Part shown: positions 47,133 through 64,000 of the stretch, piece by piece
Position numbering within the stretch: the stretch's first letter is position 1
How the letters are laid out: each line of letters starts with the position of its first letter
IMG/VR virus record: IMGVR_UViG_3300042396_000450
Coordinates: 47,624-111,623 of that record
From: a virus
DNA: 64,000 nt
Direction: 5' to 3' (one strand)
Made by a program: the position numbers and the translations under genes
Notes under the pieces: model-generated
Told to the model about the DNA's origin: nothing
What the model saw: only the letters and a program-made list of their open reading frames with translations
Databases searched by the model: none

Positions 47133-48278
47133 CTAACCTTCTTTAACGAATGGATAATTAAAATCAATACGACCTTCTCTCATAGCTGCAATATCCCATC
47201 GTTCAGTTGTATTGCAAGTGAAGATTGTAATGATTTGAGGTAAACGAGTTTGTTCAAATGGTGTAATAGCTGTATAGACATTACCATCTAACCAAGATAA
47301 CATCTTCTCAGTTGCGCCATCATTATTAGATGTCCGACTTGGAGCTATGTTATCTGCATCATTAACAACTATGGCTATTTTAGATAGGTATGCTGGAGGT
47401 GTAAAACTTCTCATACTAGCACTATCCATGTTGATGATGATGTAACCTAGTTTAGATAACACTTCCTTACAATAGGAGTTACTCCAACTAGTTTTACCAA
47501 CACCGGGTTCTCCAGTTAATATTACATTGAGTTTATTAATCTCACCTAACTCAAGTTGTTTAACTTTATCATTAATAACATTAGTTAATTCAGCATTATT
47601 AACGAAACTACTTAATTCATAGTTAGCATTAGGATAACCAATTTGATAATTATCACTTGTTATATAAGCTGCTAAATTAGATGCAGCTTTATCAATGTAA
47701 CTATGTAATGTAGTTTCATCAGCAAAACTAACTCTAATACGCGGATTGTCCCCATATTGAGTATGGATAATACACGTTGCGTTATCCCATTTAACTTCGA
47801 TAGTTCCAACTAAAGTTAACTTAGCAACATCTACATTAACATCATGTGATAGAAATACTCTACGACTATCATCCCATACGTATTGAATAATACTATTAGG
47901 TAGACCAAGTAAATTAACTATTCGATAGATAATACTTAATTGAAGTAGGTCTAATATGTGAGGTTTATTATTGCTATTATTAACCTTCCCAGTATTACGA
48001 GTTGTATCATCTACACTAATGTAGTAGAACCCACCTTCATCTTCGATATTACACTTACTAGTTTCAACGATGAACGTATCCCAACTATCAGATACAGTTT
48101 CGCTAAATAGAGCAATAATATTAGCTATAGGATGTCTAGTTACATTGAACAATTCATTACTAACTGTAGATATAAACTTACCTGCATTCCAGAGATTAAT
48201 GCGCGATATATCAATCTCAGGAGTGAATATTTCCCAACCTTCAGCTACTAGTTGAGCAATTTCTGTTTGTTTAGACAT
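47133..48278 (-). CDS. AAA+ ATPase
   Basis: This 381-residue protein's AAA core is in the second half: NVILTGEPGVGKTSWSN (Walker A), IAIVVNDADNIAP (Walker B) and IITIFTCNTTERWDIAAMREGRIDF (sensor and arginine finger). The N-terminal 220 residues are specific. It could remodel a protein or DNA complex. It lies next to the two AAA/VWA pairs. Confidence 0.75.
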   Translation of the reverse strand: MSKQTEIAQLVAEGWEIFTPEIDISRINLWNAGKFISTVSNELFNVTRHPIANIIALFSETVSDSWDTFIVETSKCNIEDEGGFYYISVDDTTRNTGKVNNSNNKPHILDLLQLSIIYRIVNLLGLPNSIIQYVWDDSRRVFLSHDVNVDVAKLTLVGTIEVKWDNATCIIHTQYGDNPRIRVSFADETTLHSYIDKAASNLAAYITSDNYQIGYPNANYELSSFVNNAELTNVINDKVKQLELGEINKLNVILTGEPGVGKTSWSNSYCKEVLSKLGYIIINMDSASMRSFTPPAYLSKIAIVVNDADNIAPSRTSNNDGATEKMLSWLDGNVYTAITPFEQTRLPQIITIFTCNTTERWDIAAMREGRIDFNYPFVKEG

Positions 48279-48707: not shown

Positions 48708-49976
48708 CTAGATTTTCTCTCTATATGTACCACCACTCTGAAGACTAATGCGACGGAGATCCGCATTCTTACTATCTAATATGAAACTATGCAATTTAGC
48801 TCCTTTAAGCATAGACAATGTTATGTTACCAGCATAATCATCACCATCATTAACCACTACAAGATGTTTGTCCTTAGCACTTATTTGATTAGGATGTTCA
48901 GCAGCTATCTTATCTGCTTGAAGTAATGCCTCAACTATACAATTACCAACTTCAGTACCTCCTTCATTAAAACCCTCATTTTTAATAACTGAATTGAAGA
49001 AACTACTTATATCAGCATAATCAAATGGGAGAAAGTAGAATTTATGACAATGTTCCTCAAAGAAAGAGAAGTTGAGCCAACATTCGCCAGCATAAACACG
49101 TTTAACTAGGTTATATATAATCCCCATAGCTTTATAGTTCTTATTGGCAGAACGCATAGATGCACTATTATCAACTATTAAGTTAACAAATGGAATCTTG
49201 GATTGTTTTTCATACCTTTCATTAACATGACATTCATTCTCAATGATCCGCGAATTAAGTACATTGCGAGGTAGTATTAACTCTCTCGGTGGTATCTTAT
49301 GCAGTTCATCAAATCCAGTTATGGGACGACTACGAACTATATCTCCATTAACTTTACGTATTAATGTAGGAGTTGGTGCAGTAGAAAGCGCAGCTATCTT
49401 ATTCATAACAGCACTAACACGTAGTATCTCAGTCCAGGATTTGTCCAATTTAGCAGCACGATTTACGTCATTTACATCATTATTACCAGTTATCTTCATG
49501 TCAACTGAATCCATTGACTTAGCTGCTTCTAATTTCTTCTTAATACTAACTGCTAATTGTTTAGCTCTTCCTCTACTCATGTCTTGATCTTTATCAAGAA
49601 ACTTTATAGTATTAATAGCTTGTTCGAGGGGACTATCTCCTGGAACATCTACACCCATTATTTCTTTAATAAACTCCTGAGTATCAGTTTGAACCTTTAC
49701 GTCATGTTTATGCCATTCATCTTGAGCCTGACTTAGCTTGGTTACAGTTCCACCGCTAGGTAACTTATATTCACCATTAGACTCAGTATGTAGATTGCGA
49801 TAATTAGTATTACTTCTGATATGTTTAAGAGTAGTTAATTGACCACCACTCCACATATTAGCTAGATCCGTCACTAATTCTTCATCATAATGCGCGACAT
49901 TCATCTCACTTGTCATTTGACGTATTTCCCTTGGAAATACAGTGTAATAACTACTTGCTTCTGTTCTAATTGTCAT
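48708..49976 (-). CDS. VWA-domain protein (CobT-like), pair 1
   Basis: A protein of about 422 residues. The start is set at MTIRTEASSYY because the longer frame would cross a hairpin. A charged N-terminal half precedes a C-terminal von Willebrand A domain with MIDAS FVNLIVDNSASMRSANK (D-x-S-x-S). Partnered AAA/VWA genes act as chelatases (CobS/CobT, BchI/BchD) or MoxR-type chaperones. It is adjacent to 50015-51190. Confidence 0.75.
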   Translation of the reverse strand: MTIRTEASSYYTVFPREIRQMTSEMNVAHYDEELVTDLANMWSGGQLTTLKHIRSNTNYRNLHTESNGEYKLPSGGTVTKLSQAQDEWHKHDVKVQTDTQEFIKEIMGVDVPGDSPLEQAINTIKFLDKDQDMSRGRAKQLAVSIKKKLEAAKSMDSVDMKITGNNDVNDVNRAAKLDKSWTEILRVSAVMNKIAALSTAPTPTLIRKVNGDIVRSRPITGFDELHKIPPRELILPRNVLNSRIIENECHVNERYEKQSKIPFVNLIVDNSASMRSANKNYKAMGIIYNLVKRVYAGECWLNFSFFEEHCHKFYFLPFDYADISSFFNSVIKNEGFNEGGTEVGNCIVEALLQADKIAAEHPNQISAKDKHLVVVNDGDDYAGNITLSMLKGAKLHSFILDSKNADLRRISLQSGGTYREKI

Positions 49977-49983
49977 AGTAATA

Positions 49984-50004
49984 GTGGGGATAATACGTCC
50001 CCAC
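49984..50004 (-). terminator. Hairpin between AAA and VWA genes of pair 1
   Basis: GTGGGGA-TAATACG-TCCCCAC is a 7-bp stem separating 50015-51190 from 48708-49976. No strong U-tract follows, so it may attenuate or process rather than stop transcription. Confidence 0.5.
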
Positions 50005-50014
50005 ATAATGTTAA

Positions 50015-51190
50015 TTACTTAGTTACTGTTGCAGATGCTAATGCAGGAATTTCATTCATAGTTTTTCTAGCTTGATTACCTACCGTGTTAATAAGATCAT
50101 TTCTCTCTTTAACTAAACTATCTGGAATATTACTAACCTTAATAATTTCACCCTCCATAAGTTGAAGTGAATTAACTAGAGCAAATATAGATACAACATC
50201 TTTTTTCGCCTTATATTCATTAATCTTATCAACGGCTCTATCAAAGTGAGTCTTAAATGTATCAAGACTAGATTTAGCATCATTGTAAATCTTCTGTTGT
50301 TGTATTTCTTCTTCTAAGTTAGATAGAAGTGATTGATCCCAACTTGGAAGATAATTGAGTACATTAAGTTGTTCAATAGTAGCAACTGATTTATTACTCA
50401 GTAACGCCTGAGACTTAATCATATTAATAGTCCACATAAACATACGAGGACTAATAATACGACCTTCATTACCAGATTTCTCAGCTAGAGAACACAGAAT
50501 ACCTTGTAACTCGCTATCTAATTTAACTTCTTCACGAGAAATACGAGCTTCATCAATCTGAGCAATAGTTAACTTGCTATCATCATTCTTCTTATTACTA
50601 ATAGCACGAATTAATCTAGAATAATCACTACTATCATGACTATCCCATTCATGACGTACAATAATGAAACGTTGAAGAAACGCATCACATGAATTAACTT
50701 CAGATGGTGGTAATTCTTCTATACGAACATAAGGATTAACGTTAGTTGCTCCAACTAACAACCTATTAATACTCTTAACTACTTCGCCATTAAGTGTTAA
50801 TTGCTTATTAGTAATTATAGCTTTAAGTACGCTAAGTGCTTGAAAACTAGCATCTAACATCTCTTCATAAAAGAAGCTATGATTACGTAATATACTAGCT
50901 CCTACATTATAGTGAGCTAATGTAATGTCTTCCTTATCAGTCTTAGTAGTACGAGCTATTGCACCACCTTTAATTAAACTAGCTGTAGTCTCAGGATCAC
51001 ACTCTAACATTGCAGATGATCCATCAATGTTGTCAAATACAGCTTTAATCATCTCAGTTTTACCGTATCCTCCCTTACCATATAACATAAGAGGAATACC
51101 AGATACAACAGCTAATTCCATAGAGTTAGCAAATGTAGCGGTGTTAATAAATCCAGCGTTAGATAAAACGTTGTTTAAATTGAATGTCAT
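50015..51190 (-). CDS. MoxR/CobS-like AAA ATPase, pair 1
   Basis: This 391-residue AAA ATPase has Walker A LMLYGKGGYGKTEMIKAVF, FFYEEMLDASFQALS (Walker B-like), and ISPRMFMWTINMIKS as a sensor II-like segment. It is followed by a VWA gene, giving a MoxR-VWA or CobS-CobT-like pair. It is similar to 52342-53520, so the pair is duplicated. Confidence 0.78.
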   Translation of the reverse strand: MTFNLNNVLSNAGFINTATFANSMELAVVSGIPLMLYGKGGYGKTEMIKAVFDNIDGSSAMLECDPETTASLIKGGAIARTTKTDKEDITLAHYNVGASILRNHSFFYEEMLDASFQALSVLKAIITNKQLTLNGEVVKSINRLLVGATNVNPYVRIEELPPSEVNSCDAFLQRFIIVRHEWDSHDSSDYSRLIRAISNKKNDDSKLTIAQIDEARISREEVKLDSELQGILCSLAEKSGNEGRIISPRMFMWTINMIKSQALLSNKSVATIEQLNVLNYLPSWDQSLLSNLEEEIQQQKIYNDAKSSLDTFKTHFDRAVDKINEYKAKKDVVSIFALVNSLQLMEGEIIKVSNIPDSLVKERNDLINTVGNQARKTMNEIPALASATVTK

Positions 51191-51199
51191 GTGATTCTC

Positions 51200-52345
51200 C
51201 TAGATATGATTACGATATGTACCACCACTAGCAATAGATAACTTCTGTAAGTTATAATTACTGCTATCTAATATAAAACTATGTAACTTAAATCCATCTA
51301 AATCAGGTAGAGTTAAGTTACATTCATCTTGACCATCATTAATTACAATTAGTTGTTTATTAGTTGATATTACACCTCTAGACTTACTAATAGCCTCTTT
51401 AATACACCTCTGAACATCAGTACCCCCTTTATCAAATGATGTATGATAGATAGCATTCCAGATACTAGTAACATCTGAATCCTTAGTTACGTGATACCAA
51501 TCGAAACAAGTTCTCTCAAAGTAAGAAAAAAGTAGTTCACACTCGCCCGATTGGACACGCTTAATTATGTTGAATATGATACCAAGAGCCTTATTCATCT
51601 TGTTATCACGTTGCATAGAACCACTAACATCACATATTAGCGTTATAAATGAAAGTTTATCCTCCTTCCGATATCGTTCAATAATGTGAGATTCATTATT
51701 AATGATGCGATAACTGAGATAATTAACTGGATTAATCAACTCAATTGGATTGATTAGATTAAGTTCATCAAATCCGCGTATAGGTCTAGTTTCGCAGTAT
51801 TCACCAGTAGAATCGGCGATCATAGTATTACTAGTATCTATGATACCTAACTTATCAAGAGTGTCACTAGCACGTAATACCTCAGCTAATTTATAACTGA
51901 TTTCACCAGATAGAAGTAACTTCTCATCGGCGGATCTACGTCTCAGTGATTTAACAGTTTCCTTAATACTCTTAACCTTTTTTCTTACCTCATGATTATT
52001 ATTGAATATTGGTAATGTTAATTCACTATTACTATTATCATCACCAGTTTCACCATTAGCTAATAACTCAAGTATGTTAAATACTTGTTCTAATGGAGAT
52101 CCCGATAAACTACTAGCTAATGATGGTACTTTCTCTAGGAAAGATTGAACATTGACTTCATAATCAATGTTATCTATACACTGTTGCTGCATATATTCAA
52201 CTGAAGTTAATGTACCTCCAGTTAACATATTAAACATATCAGTAACTAAAGTAGGACAATAGTTATAAATGTCGAATTTAGCAGCAACTACATCCATTTC
52301 ATCAGTAGTTGGAGTAACTGCATCTAGATGTGCGATAGTTCTCAT
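51200..52345 (-). CDS. VWA-domain protein (CobT-like), pair 2
   Basis: This 381-residue protein's C-terminal VWA domain has MIDAS ITLICDVSGSMQRDNKMNK (D-x-S-G-S). A common N-terminal helical part with 48708-49976 (ESHIIERY / ECHVNERY) shows that the two are paralogues. It overlaps its partner gene by 4 bases. Confidence 0.78.
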   Translation of the reverse strand: MRTIAHLDAVTPTTDEMDVVAAKFDIYNYCPTLVTDMFNMLTGGTLTSVEYMQQQCIDNIDYEVNVQSFLEKVPSLASSLSGSPLEQVFNILELLANGETGDDNSNSELTLPIFNNNHEVRKKVKSIKETVKSLRRRSADEKLLLSGEISYKLAEVLRASDTLDKLGIIDTSNTMIADSTGEYCETRPIRGFDELNLINPIELINPVNYLSYRIINNESHIIERYRKEDKLSFITLICDVSGSMQRDNKMNKALGIIFNIIKRVQSGECELLFSYFERTCFDWYHVTKDSDVTSIWNAIYHTSFDKGGTDVQRCIKEAISKSRGVISTNKQLIVINDGQDECNLTLPDLDGFKLHSFILDSSNYNLQKLSIASGGTYRNHI

Positions 52346-53520
52346 AGTTGAATTGGAGTTAATAACTTATCTAGTTTTATTGCAACTTCATTTAACAGAG
52401 ATTTAAACTGCAACTTAACTTCATTGTATTTAACTTCAGTATCATCATCATACGTAACTGTAGTTAGAAACTCATCATATAACTTAGTTATAGATAAATG
52501 AAGTGTTTGTAAATGCCAATATAATTCCAAGTTATTAAAATCAAAATTAGTTGATTCTTCATACATTTTCTTAACTTTAACTAATCTACTACTAAAGTTA
52601 TCTAACTTTTCATTAGATACCTGTCTCAATTCAATCTCCTCAATTGCTTCATCAACTTCATCCCAATCAACGCTCCAGTAACTTAGATAATCAATAACTC
52701 TGAAATCACATCTCTCAACTACATTAGACCCACGCAATAATGCAGCACTTTTAATTAATCGCACTGTCCATTGAAATGCTCTAGGACTAACAGTATTACC
52801 ACTATTAGCACTATCTTCAGCTAACTTAGCTAATAGTCGCCATAAGTCAATATTAAATTCAATTAATTTAACATCATTACGCCATTTATCAATGTCAGTT
52901 AACTCAAATTGAACAACTGGTAATTCGTTAACTGATGGATATAATGCAATATAATCGTCAGCATTATGAGATTTCCAACCATGTTCAACTATCATGAACC
53001 TCTGAAGAAATGCAGCACAACTATTACGTTGATTCTCACGTACTGTAGATGTTACAGATGTGGGATTAATGTTAGTCGCACATACTAGAATCTTACAATT
53101 ATTAATGATCTCATCACCATTAATATGTATTTTCTTACCTGTAATCACAGCCTTCAGGAAACTAAGTGCATTGAAACTCGCATCTAATACTTCTTCTAAC
53201 ATGAAGTAGTCATGCTGTAGTAGCGAATTAGCCACATTGTAATACGCTTCAGTTAAACTACCACCTTCTTGATTAATGGTTCTTGCAATTGCGCCACCTT
53301 TAATAGCAGCACTAGTTGTTTCAGGATCACATTCAAGCATTCCGAAACGTCCATTGAACAGAGATAATGCACTAATTAACATCTCTGATTTACCATATCC
53401 ACCTTCACCATGATAGATGATTGGGATGTCAGCTAATACGCTCAACATAAATGTATCGGCAAACTCATCTACATTAATAAATCCATCATTATTGAGCTTA
53501 TTGATTAAGTTATCTAACAT
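52342..53520 (-). CDS. MoxR/CobS-like AAA ATPase, pair 2
   Basis: This 392-residue protein has Walker A IIYHGEGGYGKSEMLISAL and MLEEVLDASFNALSFLKAVI. It closely parallels 50015-51190 (AKLAEDSANSGNTVSPRAFQWTVRLIKSAAL versus the same region). It is preceded by AATAGGAG before its ATG. A chaperone-like role on a metallo-enzyme or virion complex is inferred. Confidence 0.78.
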   Translation of the reverse strand: MLDNLINKLNNDGFINVDEFADTFMLSVLADIPIIYHGEGGYGKSEMLISALSLFNGRFGMLECDPETTSAAIKGGAIARTINQEGGSLTEAYYNVANSLLQHDYFMLEEVLDASFNALSFLKAVITGKKIHINGDEIINNCKILVCATNINPTSVTSTVRENQRNSCAAFLQRFMIVEHGWKSHNADDYIALYPSVNELPVVQFELTDIDKWRNDVKLIEFNIDLWRLLAKLAEDSANSGNTVSPRAFQWTVRLIKSAALLRGSNVVERCDFRVIDYLSYWSVDWDEVDEAIEEIELRQVSNEKLDNFSSRLVKVKKMYEESTNFDFNNLELYWHLQTLHLSITKLYDEFLTTVTYDDDTEVKYNEVKLQFKSLLNEVAIKLDKLLTPIQL

Positions 53521-60772: not shown

Positions 60773-62755
60773 TTATACCTTAACTCTCATAGTTCTATTA
60801 CCATTAACTCTAACTACAAAGTTATTACGTAATGTTGAATTAAATCCAACTCCAGATAATTGGTTACTGCAAGATGGTGTCTTTAACTTATCACCAAGTA
60901 CATCAAATACCTTACGACTATGCTGAACTAATTCAGACTTAAGATACTCATTAAAGATAGATCGAGGATTATCTGAATTAACACATCCTTCTAACATAAA
61001 GAGATAGTGTTTTTCACCGATAGCAGTTGTCCAATGATTAGGAGATAAACTAACTAGATTGACCTTATGGAATAAATTAGTCTTAATACCCCATATCTCC
61101 TTAGATGACACACTAGAACCGCTACTATCAAGTGATTTAACAATAGTAAATCCTTTTAATTTGTCGAATTTAACAGTAACTACAGGTATTGTCTCTCCAC
61201 CTCGAAGATTCTTATTATATGCGTAAGAAAAAAGAGTACCATCTATTTCTAATTCAGCAGTAAATCCGCCATTAGATGTACGAGATGAATAGTTATGAAC
61301 AAAGTATGTGTATTCACCATCCAGCATTCGGCGGCGATCTATGTGAACTATGTTCTCTACTGCAACTCCTCTAGGAACGCGTATATCAACGTCCAACGAG
61401 CCACCAGTATTTCTACTAACTTTATTATTGTATGCAATCTCACAATAAAGAGGTTCTCTACAATGAGCATCGAAATCAATAATGTTATTATCATTATCAT
61501 TCCATTGAATACTAAACCTACTAACTACATTATCTACACGTCCACCTGCTGCTTTAACTCTCTCACGCATACTATCAGCATTACCGCCATTGTAAACCCA
61601 GCTAAATGAGTTATCCCACTTAAATAATGTAGGTGCTGCACTATCTACAGCAGTTACTAAACTAACTAAATTACCACTATGGCGCGATTCAAGTAGTAAC
61701 TCAACATTAGTAGCACCAGGTAACACATCATTAATAAACTCATCTATGTTAACTTCATCTAACTTAACTAATGACTTAGGATTAACAGGAACTTCATCTA
61801 ATATGCTATCAAATACATTAGTATTGAGTTTCTGAGAGCGATTAATAAACAGAGCATCATTAACGTTAATATCAGCTTCATTTGCAAATCTCCTATTTAA
61901 TGCAGATTCTAAACCTAGTTCAATTACAAGTTGATTAGCTTCCTCTACTTGTTTCTTAGTAGAGATAACTTGATTAGTTCTCATGTAGTTAGATGGAGCT
62001 ACCATAGCTTCATATTTTCTAACTGCAACATTAATATCAACACTATTAGATAAATCAATTAATAAACTACCTATTGAAGTGTTTCTAATACCTGCAATAA
62101 ACGAACTAGAGTTAATCCAACAATAGTTATCCTTATTAATAGTATCCTTGTATTCTTGTTGATGTTTAAGTAATTCAATTAAACTAGTTTTATTTGATTC
62201 ACCTCTATATAACTGATTTTGTGCAATTAACTCAAGCACTGTTTCAGTTGAATCAATTGATAGTTCATTTAATGCTCGTTTAAATGTTTCCTTCTTACTA
62301 CGTTTATCAGACATCAAGGTATTTTCAGTTAAAAAAGATTGAGTTACTAATGTACTAGGTAACTCATAATAGAGATGTTGCCATTCTACATCAATAGTTA
62401 AACTACGATCTGTACCTAACTTAGATTGTTTAGTTATGAATACATTAGTTATGTTAGATTCACTAACTAACTTATCTAATGCAGCTATAACTCCTGCATA
62501 CATAACGTCATCTACAGTGAAATCCCACATTGACTTAACTTCACCATCTTTAATGGCAACTACATTACCATACTGTTTAATAAACTGTCTACAACAGTTA
62601 CAGTTAAATCCTTGACGTTCATCATCAGGAAACGCATTTAAATAAGCATCCCATAACTCATTCTTATTAACATCAGTTACATATAACCGAACTTGTCCTT
62701 CAATGAGTTTATTGAAGTTACTTTGAAACAATACTTTAAATTCATTAAATTGCAT
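60773..62755 (-). CDS. Large conserved phage protein with YfaP/DUF2135-like domain
   Basis: This is a 660-residue protein. Residues 40-60 hold GFNCNCCRQFIK, a metal-binding Cys cluster. Around residues 430-520 there is a DUF2135/YfaP-like beta domain: IDFDAHCREP, then TGGSLDVDIRVPRG, VENIVHIDRRRMLDGEYTYFVHNYSSR and GGFTAELEIDGTLF. Similar proteins occur in large phages. The role is unknown; the Cys-rich head suggests a regulated protein. Confidence 0.6.
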   Translation of the reverse strand: MQFNEFKVLFQSNFNKLIEGQVRLYVTDVNKNELWDAYLNAFPDDERQGFNCNCCRQFIKQYGNVVAIKDGEVKSMWDFTVDDVMYAGVIAALDKLVSESNITNVFITKQSKLGTDRSLTIDVEWQHLYYELPSTLVTQSFLTENTLMSDKRSKKETFKRALNELSIDSTETVLELIAQNQLYRGESNKTSLIELLKHQQEYKDTINKDNYCWINSSSFIAGIRNTSIGSLLIDLSNSVDINVAVRKYEAMVAPSNYMRTNQVISTKKQVEEANQLVIELGLESALNRRFANEADINVNDALFINRSQKLNTNVFDSILDEVPVNPKSLVKLDEVNIDEFINDVLPGATNVELLLESRHSGNLVSLVTAVDSAAPTLFKWDNSFSWVYNGGNADSMRERVKAAGGRVDNVVSRFSIQWNDNDNNIIDFDAHCREPLYCEIAYNNKVSRNTGGSLDVDIRVPRGVAVENIVHIDRRRMLDGEYTYFVHNYSSRTSNGGFTAELEIDGTLFSYAYNKNLRGGETIPVVTVKFDKLKGFTIVKSLDSSGSSVSSKEIWGIKTNLFHKVNLVSLSPNHWTTAIGEKHYLFMLEGCVNSDNPRSIFNEYLKSELVQHSRKVFDVLGDKLKTPSCSNQLSGVGFNSTLRNNFVVRVNGNRTMRVKV

Positions 62756-63368
62756 AACTCTAAGTCTCCTAATTGTGTTAACTCTAAACTAACTTAATTA
62801 ACAATGAATAGTTATCACTAAATCCTGCAAACTTAAATGACTTATAATGGACAAGTTACAGGAACTAAAGCAACTATTAATTGAGCTAGTTGTTTCTTAC
62901 TTAACTAAATATCTCTCTAATTAAGATACTTAGTATACTAAGATACTTCACTAACTCGCCCCTTACACTGTTCTAGGAAATTTAGATAGATCTATCCTAA
63001 ATACCTAACATTACTACTACTAGTAGTCTTTTTAACGTTGCGACTTGTTGTTAACTCAGTGCAACTAATTACTTACCATTGATCCTAACTATTGCTAGGT
63101 GGTGTCACTTGACTTGTCGGGACATTACCTGGTATCTCTAGATGTCCGAACATTGTGCAACCGTGATAGTGACCTTCTTTATGTTTTAGCTCTAGAGCCA
63201 GGACTTTCACCCTGATCACGGTGTAGACTACTGGTGTTCTGAGGTGTCTTGATAAGACCCAGTGCCTACGGAATGAGTAAACCCCTTAAACTCATACTCC
63301 GCATACCAGCCAATACCGTAAACTACGTGACGCAGTATCAAGGGATCTTTCGATATTAGCTAGTAATA
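62756..63368 (-). ncRNA. Gene-free, hairpin-rich stretch; possible structured RNA
   Basis: No ORF with coding character was found over about 600 bases. The centre (63070-63350) is richer in G+C than the window. On the minus strand it can form many helices: ACCGTGAT with ATCACGGT (8 bp, 63162-63223), TGCGGA/ATGAGT with ACTCAT/TCCGTA (63266-63304), GTCTT-AAGAC, GCTCTAGAGC, TCGGACAT with ATGTCC(C)GA, GTCACT with AGTGAC, and a 14-base palindrome CTTAGTATACTAAG. It does not match RNase P, tmRNA or a group II domain V to me. Strand and function are uncertain. Confidence 0.5.
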
Positions 63369-63584
63369 TCATAACTTAGTTTTTAATAAATTTACAACTA
63401 AATTATTCAAACAACTTAATACTGAAGGTTTTTGTTCTAGTAACATTTCCTCATATAATTCGACAGCAATATCATATACCGCGCTACGTCGTTGATCTAT
63501 TAACTTATTTTCATGAGCTTGACATTCTTCAGGAGTGTCAAATAACTTACCATCTCTGGATTGATACTTAGTTACTTTTTTCAT
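63369..63584 (-). CDS. Small hypothetical protein
   Basis: A 71-residue protein with YQSRDGKLFDTPEECQAHE near the N-terminus, a pattern common in small phage proteins with a 'DGK-x-FDT-x-EEC-x-AHE' core, then a helical part. It lies between the structured stretch and the DGR target gene. It is not an Avd-type accessory protein by sequence. Confidence 0.65.
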   Translation of the reverse strand: MKKVTKYQSRDGKLFDTPEECQAHENKLIDQRRSAVYDIAVELYEEMLLEQKPSVLSCLNNLVVNLLKTKL

Positions 63585-63635
63585 TATCTTAATTCCTGTG
63601 ATGTTTAACTTATTTTCTTACCATGTCAAGATAAA

Positions 63636-64000
63636 TTATTTCAATTTACTGCACATAGCACTACATACAACCCGAAAACCGAAGTTGCCGATGCGGTAGT
63701 CGAGATCGTTGTCGTAGCGAAAAGCAGAACGGCAATTAGCAGGATAGTTGAACCACGAACCACCGCGCAGCAGCTTTCTATTACTACTCTCTTCATTATC
63801 TAGCCATGCGCTACCATCTGTTGGCGCACCTTTATAGTTACTATGCCAACTATCTTGACACCACTCCCATACATTGCCGTGCATATCATATAAACCAAAG
63901 GCGTTGGGCTGAAAAGTTCCTACTGGAGTTGTTCTTCCTCGATATTCTCCCTTGGGGGCATTACCATAGGTGTAGTTACCATCATAGTTTACCTCATTTG
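63636..64000 (-). CDS. DGR variable protein, FGE/C-type-lectin fold, N-terminus beyond window
   Basis: The 3' 120 codons of a formylglycine-generating-enzyme-like protein are visible: [39 protein letters not shown], then [19 protein letters not shown] and [10 protein letters not shown] before the stop. [16 protein letters not shown] and the GGSW...FGFRVV end are diagnostic of this domain as used in diversity-generating retroelement targets. The codons are more GC-rich than the neighbours. The likely role is a variable binding surface, possibly on the virion or host contact. The start is outside the window. Confidence 0.85.
63667..63764 (-). other. DGR variable region (VR)
   Basis: Coding from GGTGGTTCGTGG to the conserved GGTTTTCGGGTTGT end, the segment is GC-rich relative to the window. 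It holds many Asn/Asp/Tyr/Ile/Phe-coding positions ([16 protein letters not shown]) that fit adenine-templated AAC/AAT codons of a typical template repeat. No template repeat or RT gene is visible in these 64 kb. Confidence 0.75.

Follow-up and report, generated by a model that had tools for sequence, protein, structure and literature searches.

The large noncoding RNAs of phages to which a long structured gap is most readily compared are ROOL and GOLLD, both of which are often found near tRNA islands, GOLLD often exceeding 800 nt in length (PMC12286853). The original prediction likened to them, in size and style, a gap of about 600 bases in the genome of a phage. We analysed this gap in its window, i.e., the whole 64,000-nt stretch of DNA under study, which makes up the final 64 kb of a viral contig of 111,623 bp. 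The portal protein of the phage is similar to that of Pseudanabaena phages (23%), and its FGE protein is similar to those of Microcystis phages and of plasmid pANA02 of Anabaena sp. 90, which together point to a phage of freshwater cyanobacteria. The right and left ends of the contig are linked by two other contigs (G026 and G021), which span the roughly 9.6-9.7 kb missing between them, so that the genome would measure about 121 kb.

The region at 62756-63368 spans 613 nt without any open reading frame (ORF) of at least 60 aa in the ORF listing. It runs from the stop of a 71-aa ORF to the start of a 660-aa gene (Table 1) and, in line with the claim of a long gene-free stretch, it is the longest ORF-free stretch of the contig (the runner-up has 430 nt). 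The GC-rich centre described for it is also real: the middle of the gap has a GC content of 0.45-0.47 against 0.32 for the genome, and its best windows of 200 and 300 nt reach 0.47 and 0.453, values equalled by only 0.4-0.5% of the contig. Only two or three other places of the contig have a peak as high (two for the 300-nt peak). The other gaps of at least 250 nt have GC contents of 0.26-0.38, most of them 0.26-0.30, and the one that is the site of a group I intron (contig positions 19876-20241) has 0.38. In AT-rich genomes, structured RNA is usually marked by raised GC.

Table 1. Features of the gap and its surroundings (positions in the window).
Feature	Position	Strand	Basis or remark
660-aa phage protein, phrog_1735 (unknown function)	60773..62755	-	downstream of candidate
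Remnant 3' end of small gene, ending in FSDNYSLLIKLV and a stop	62784..62822	-	tblastn, 12/12 residues identical; alignment
Candidate ncRNA, predicted transcript of ~464 nt	62898..63361	-	both ends inferred: start from promoter-like hexamers, 3' end from last hairpin
Predicted 3' hairpin CTAAGTATCT/AGATATTTAG	62905..62933	-	
Possible domain	63019..63235	-	closing 11-nt arms 63225-63235/63019-63029, 10/11 paired; inverted-repeat search
Further hairpins inside domain	63120-63147, 63084-63099	-	
8-bp stem inside domain	63215-63222/63160-63167	-	
GAAA-capped hairpin inside domain	63199-63214	-	
Predicted hairpin GCGGA...UCCGU, purine-rich loop	63267..63303	-	local folds
Predicted 5' helix, 15 bp including GU pairs, enclosing inner hairpin	63304..63365	-	local minimum-free-energy folds
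Promoter-like hexamers TTGTAA-18-TATGAT, just upstream of candidate	63368..63397	-	consensus scan, 9/12 matches, weak
71-aa ORF, upstream of candidate	63369..63584	-	absent from contigs L004-L006
FGE-sulfatase-like gene, 3' part, runs off contig	63636..64000	-	Pfam PF03781, E 1e-28
DGR-type variable region of FGE gene	about 63682-63768	-	comparison with host template

The gap folds more stably on the minus strand, with a z-score of -4.0 for the 613 nt (20 shuffles) and of -3.5 for a 478-nt core (100 shuffles; -3.2 on a re-run with 15), than on the plus strand, where the corresponding values are -1.7 and -2.3. Of 131 stretches of 478 nt drawn at random from this contig, seven had a z-score of -3.4 or lower. 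The fold stability of the gap is within the top 5-7% of the random stretches of the phage and not beyond, it is not clearly higher than this genome background, and the gap folds no better than ordinary genes of the same phage. The most stable 160-nt fold in a sample of the contig lies elsewhere (z-score -7.2; contig 95201-95360, window 47578-47737, minus strand), inside the ORF at 47133-48278.

The centre had also been described as packed with helices. The 8-bp stem, the GAAA hairpin and the palindromes do exist, but their counts equal those of shuffled or simulated sequences. The gap holds two exact inverted repeats of at least 8 bp (shuffle mean 1.5) and five of at least 7 bp (shuffle mean 5.5), and overall its inverted repeats of 7-9 bp do not exceed those of shuffles in number. 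Three palindromes of 12-14 bp lie within about 100 bp (62929-63026), and three palindromes of 12 bp or more fell within 110 bp in 6 of 60 simulations (about 10%). A 10-bp direct repeat is also present in the region. The fold of 63010-63240 has a z-score of -2.7, equalled by 2 of 200 shuffles. Because repeat counts match those of shuffles, some 10% of simulations yield such a palindrome cluster and the z-scores are ordinary, the structural claim is unsupported beyond the genome background.

The limits of the candidate are narrower than those of the gap. In a related contig (L005:4871-5107), an intact 79-aa ORF lies between the candidate and the 660-aa gene, and the window keeps only its 3' end; this decayed end of a small gene falls within the last ~75 bases of the gap. 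Since 62784-62822 is the tail of that ORF, we narrowed the candidate to about 62898-63361, and the remainder (62756-62897) is mostly decayed coding sequence together with the leader of the 660-aa gene. On the other side, 232 bp that include most of the 71-aa ORF (63408-63639) are missing in L004-L006, and this absence is bordered by near-repeats of 12-13 nt, TTGAAATAATTTA and TTGAATAATTTA. The edge of the 71-aa ORF was rejected as an RNA boundary because the absence falls between these near-identical repeats.

The predicted parts of the candidate vary in how well they stand out. Matches to promoter-like hexamers number three, against 4.8 expected in shuffles, and a Gibbs search for a promoter common to the phage gave nothing convincing. 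When the 478-nt core is folded as a whole, the segment of the 5' helix pairs differently from the local folds, and the arms closing the possible domain are repeats of a size expected by chance. At the 3' hairpin, L005 differs at five sites, four in the loop and one in the stem, where a G-U pair becomes G-C. These changes suggest that pairing may be selected, which is the sole hint of this kind and a small one.

The gap region was found in only six other contigs, all near-identical. Across the seven contigs, the core of about 450 nt shows one shared change (63254) and six changes in L005 near its 3' end. In these contigs the genes on either side differ just as little (0.1-0.5%, with a local background of about 0.2%), and conservation was rejected as a sign of selection because the entire neighbourhood is equally conserved. 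A blastn search against phage and plasmid records returned no diverged homologue of the core, exact patterns searched in viral contigs gave no true new homologue (the matches in L054 and L055 fall within coding sequence and were rejected as chance), and a single pattern searched in bacterial genomes gave no match. We also built two covariance models, R1 (63055-63235, with an imperfect structure) and R2 (63226-63375). Together they found nothing below an E-value of 1 except the locus itself, either in 680 kb of DNA of this and related phages or in 706 kb surrounding the homologues of the 660-aa gene; R1 alone gave the same outcome in 715 kb of DNA from pattern matches. The noncoding GC-rich gap is absent from the searched databases outside one phage group.

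Our preferred reading, to which we give a probability of roughly 0.4, is that the ~464 nt at 62898-63361 on the minus strand may be a lineage-specific phage RNA transcribed leftwards. Transcription of this stretch, the predicted fold and its importance are all points we infer, and at present the gap is a candidate RNA only. The reading is favoured by the length of the gap, its raised GC and the advantage of the minus-strand fold over that of the plus strand, and also by the placement of the hexamers, the changes in the L005 hairpin and the retention of the core amid exchange of its flanks. It is weakened by a fold that lies within the background, by counts of helices, promoters and palindromes that equal chance, and by homologues that are all near-identical and no more conserved than their neighbourhood. 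Its promoter would lie just within the 71-aa ORF, at the end of that ORF, and the transcript would stop close to the hairpin at 62905-62933, its product acting as a trans-acting or leader-type RNA, not via a protein; its role, at a guess, might be to help regulate or pack the products of phage genes in the course of infection. A more ambitious version seems to us rather doubtful: the locus would then stand for a family not seen before among the large structured phage RNAs, about 460 nt long and transcribed from its own promoter, with a domain formed by interacting hairpins and a long-range stem that closes it, and retained amid the exchange of its flanks.

We hold the RNA reading with low confidence, and decayed DNA and a long mRNA leader are close rivals of it. 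According to the first, which we judge somewhat unlikely, the gap consists of decayed or foreign DNA, i.e., the remains of lost genes at a gene-swapping spot, functionless as RNA and with a GC content derived from the host. The 3' end of the gap does hold what is left of a gene that L005 keeps intact, whereas the core, inspected by eye in six frames, contains no coding remnant. Genes on either side are replaced or deleted between relatives, as expected of such a spot, yet the core between them is intact in all seven contigs. A foreign origin would be consistent with the adjoining FGE gene, which likewise reaches a GC content of 0.45 and closely resembles a gene on a cyanobacterial plasmid, but the core has no match in plasmid or phage records (the host chromosome was searched by one pattern only). 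The ordinary structure of the gap, for this genome, also fits decay.

It is unlikely that the gap instead serves the 660-aa gene and those that follow it as an extended 5' leader, with control resembling that of an attenuator or a riboswitch, or that it is a spacer processed out of a longer transcript running leftwards. Although the gap shares the strand of this gene, lies directly upstream of it and ends at its start, annotated phages with a homologue of the 660-aa protein show tight upstream spacing and no large gap, and none of 75 related loci has a copy of the candidate upstream that is detectable with R1 and R2. The small ORF that separates the candidate from the 660-aa gene in L005 argues in the same direction, as does the lack of a terminator-like site in a scan of the minus strand of the gap. 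Finally, the palindromes could be protein-binding sites in a DNA-level element for replication, packaging or regulator binding, a reading that the direct repeat would also favour, but this is highly improbable given how often simulations produce such a palindrome cluster and given that the gap lies inside a leftward gene cluster; contig G026 places the point where transcription diverges roughly 10 kb away.

The gap had been placed next to a DGR gene. Its neighbour is indeed a target of the DGR type, but RVT_1 searches of the contig and of the contigs that bridge its ends detected no phage reverse transcriptase. The last 365 nt of the gene in the window are identical to contig L003 (FGE gene at L003:3906-5120) except for 39 changes, all within 87 nt. 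In L003, L005, L006 and L008, the variable region has a single skeleton, with 31 of 107 sites variable; between the window and these contigs together with L004, two different template skeletons are seen. The variable region of the window aligns to a template on the Anabaena sp. 90 plasmid pANA02 (L291:8907-9021) that adjoins RT and avd, and 16 of the 18 differences between them fall on the 33 adenines of the template. The conserved sequence at the 3' end of the variable region occurs once per contig tested, with no second copy. Remote DGR targets are a known possibility (PMC8144416). The natural reading is that a host DGR possibly diversifies the phage FGE gene in trans, the alternative being a recent transfer of the host gene to the phage. 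About 10-15 kb from the FGE gene, the minus strand at 48708-53520 carries two gene pairs that, by eye, encode a MoxR-like ATPase and a VWA protein; DGR targets of Nostoc occur with MoxR and VWA genes (PMC12691664). The DGR-type finding in the FGE gene is more solid than the RNA candidate, and a phage variable region that fits a cyanobacterial DGR template, with no phage reverse transcriptase found, may merit more attention than the RNA.

How, then, does the candidate compare with known systems? A scan of 62756-63368 with the 4227 families of Rfam, using Infernal, gave no match at the gathering level, in agreement with the original prediction, which had matched it to no family; no GOLLD, ROOL, group I or group II intron, or riboswitch is thus detectable in the gap. 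The sole match at an E-value of at most 10 was to RAGATH-17 (RF03095), where 53 nt around the GAAA hairpin align with 23 bits (E 1.4-4), far under the gathering score of 102 bits, and this identity was rejected as chance-level. An intron or a DGR template, either of which would have explained the gap otherwise, was looked for and neither was found. The group I (RF00028) and group II (RF01998) models have no match in the gap; the phage does carry a group I intron outside the window (RF00028, 80 bits; G000:C1:19842-20062, L083), but the candidate, unlike an intron, has no interrupted gene around it. It resembles a DGR template RNA in having a DGR target a few hundred bases upstream, but differs in that it holds no near copy of the variable region and the phage no reverse transcriptase that we could find; the candidate does not match the DGR locus of Anabaena sp. 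90, and template identity was excluded because the region contains no template-like sequence. A distantly related phage contig has an ORF-free stretch of 1 kb (L073:13947-14974, i.e., G020:93947-94974) with a GC content of 0.41 against 0.34, and no Rfam match within it.

The likeness to GOLLD and ROOL did not hold at the level of models, neither of which matches the gap. A search of the contig with the ROOL model (RF03087) gave no match at an E-value of at most 10, in a run whose own controls gave no signal. The candidate also differs from ROOL in having no tRNA nearby: none was found in the window or in related contigs, the one tRNA-Pro being far off in the contig. It differs from GOLLD in its ~464 nt and in the absence of a match in the scan of all Rfam. 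If it is a true RNA, it would be one more orphan among the few large phage ncRNAs and a system for their study in Nostocales-type cyanophages, sharing with GOLLD the nature of a large phage RNA of unknown function and with ROOL its size class (574 model positions in RF03087), its phage origin and its intergenic site.
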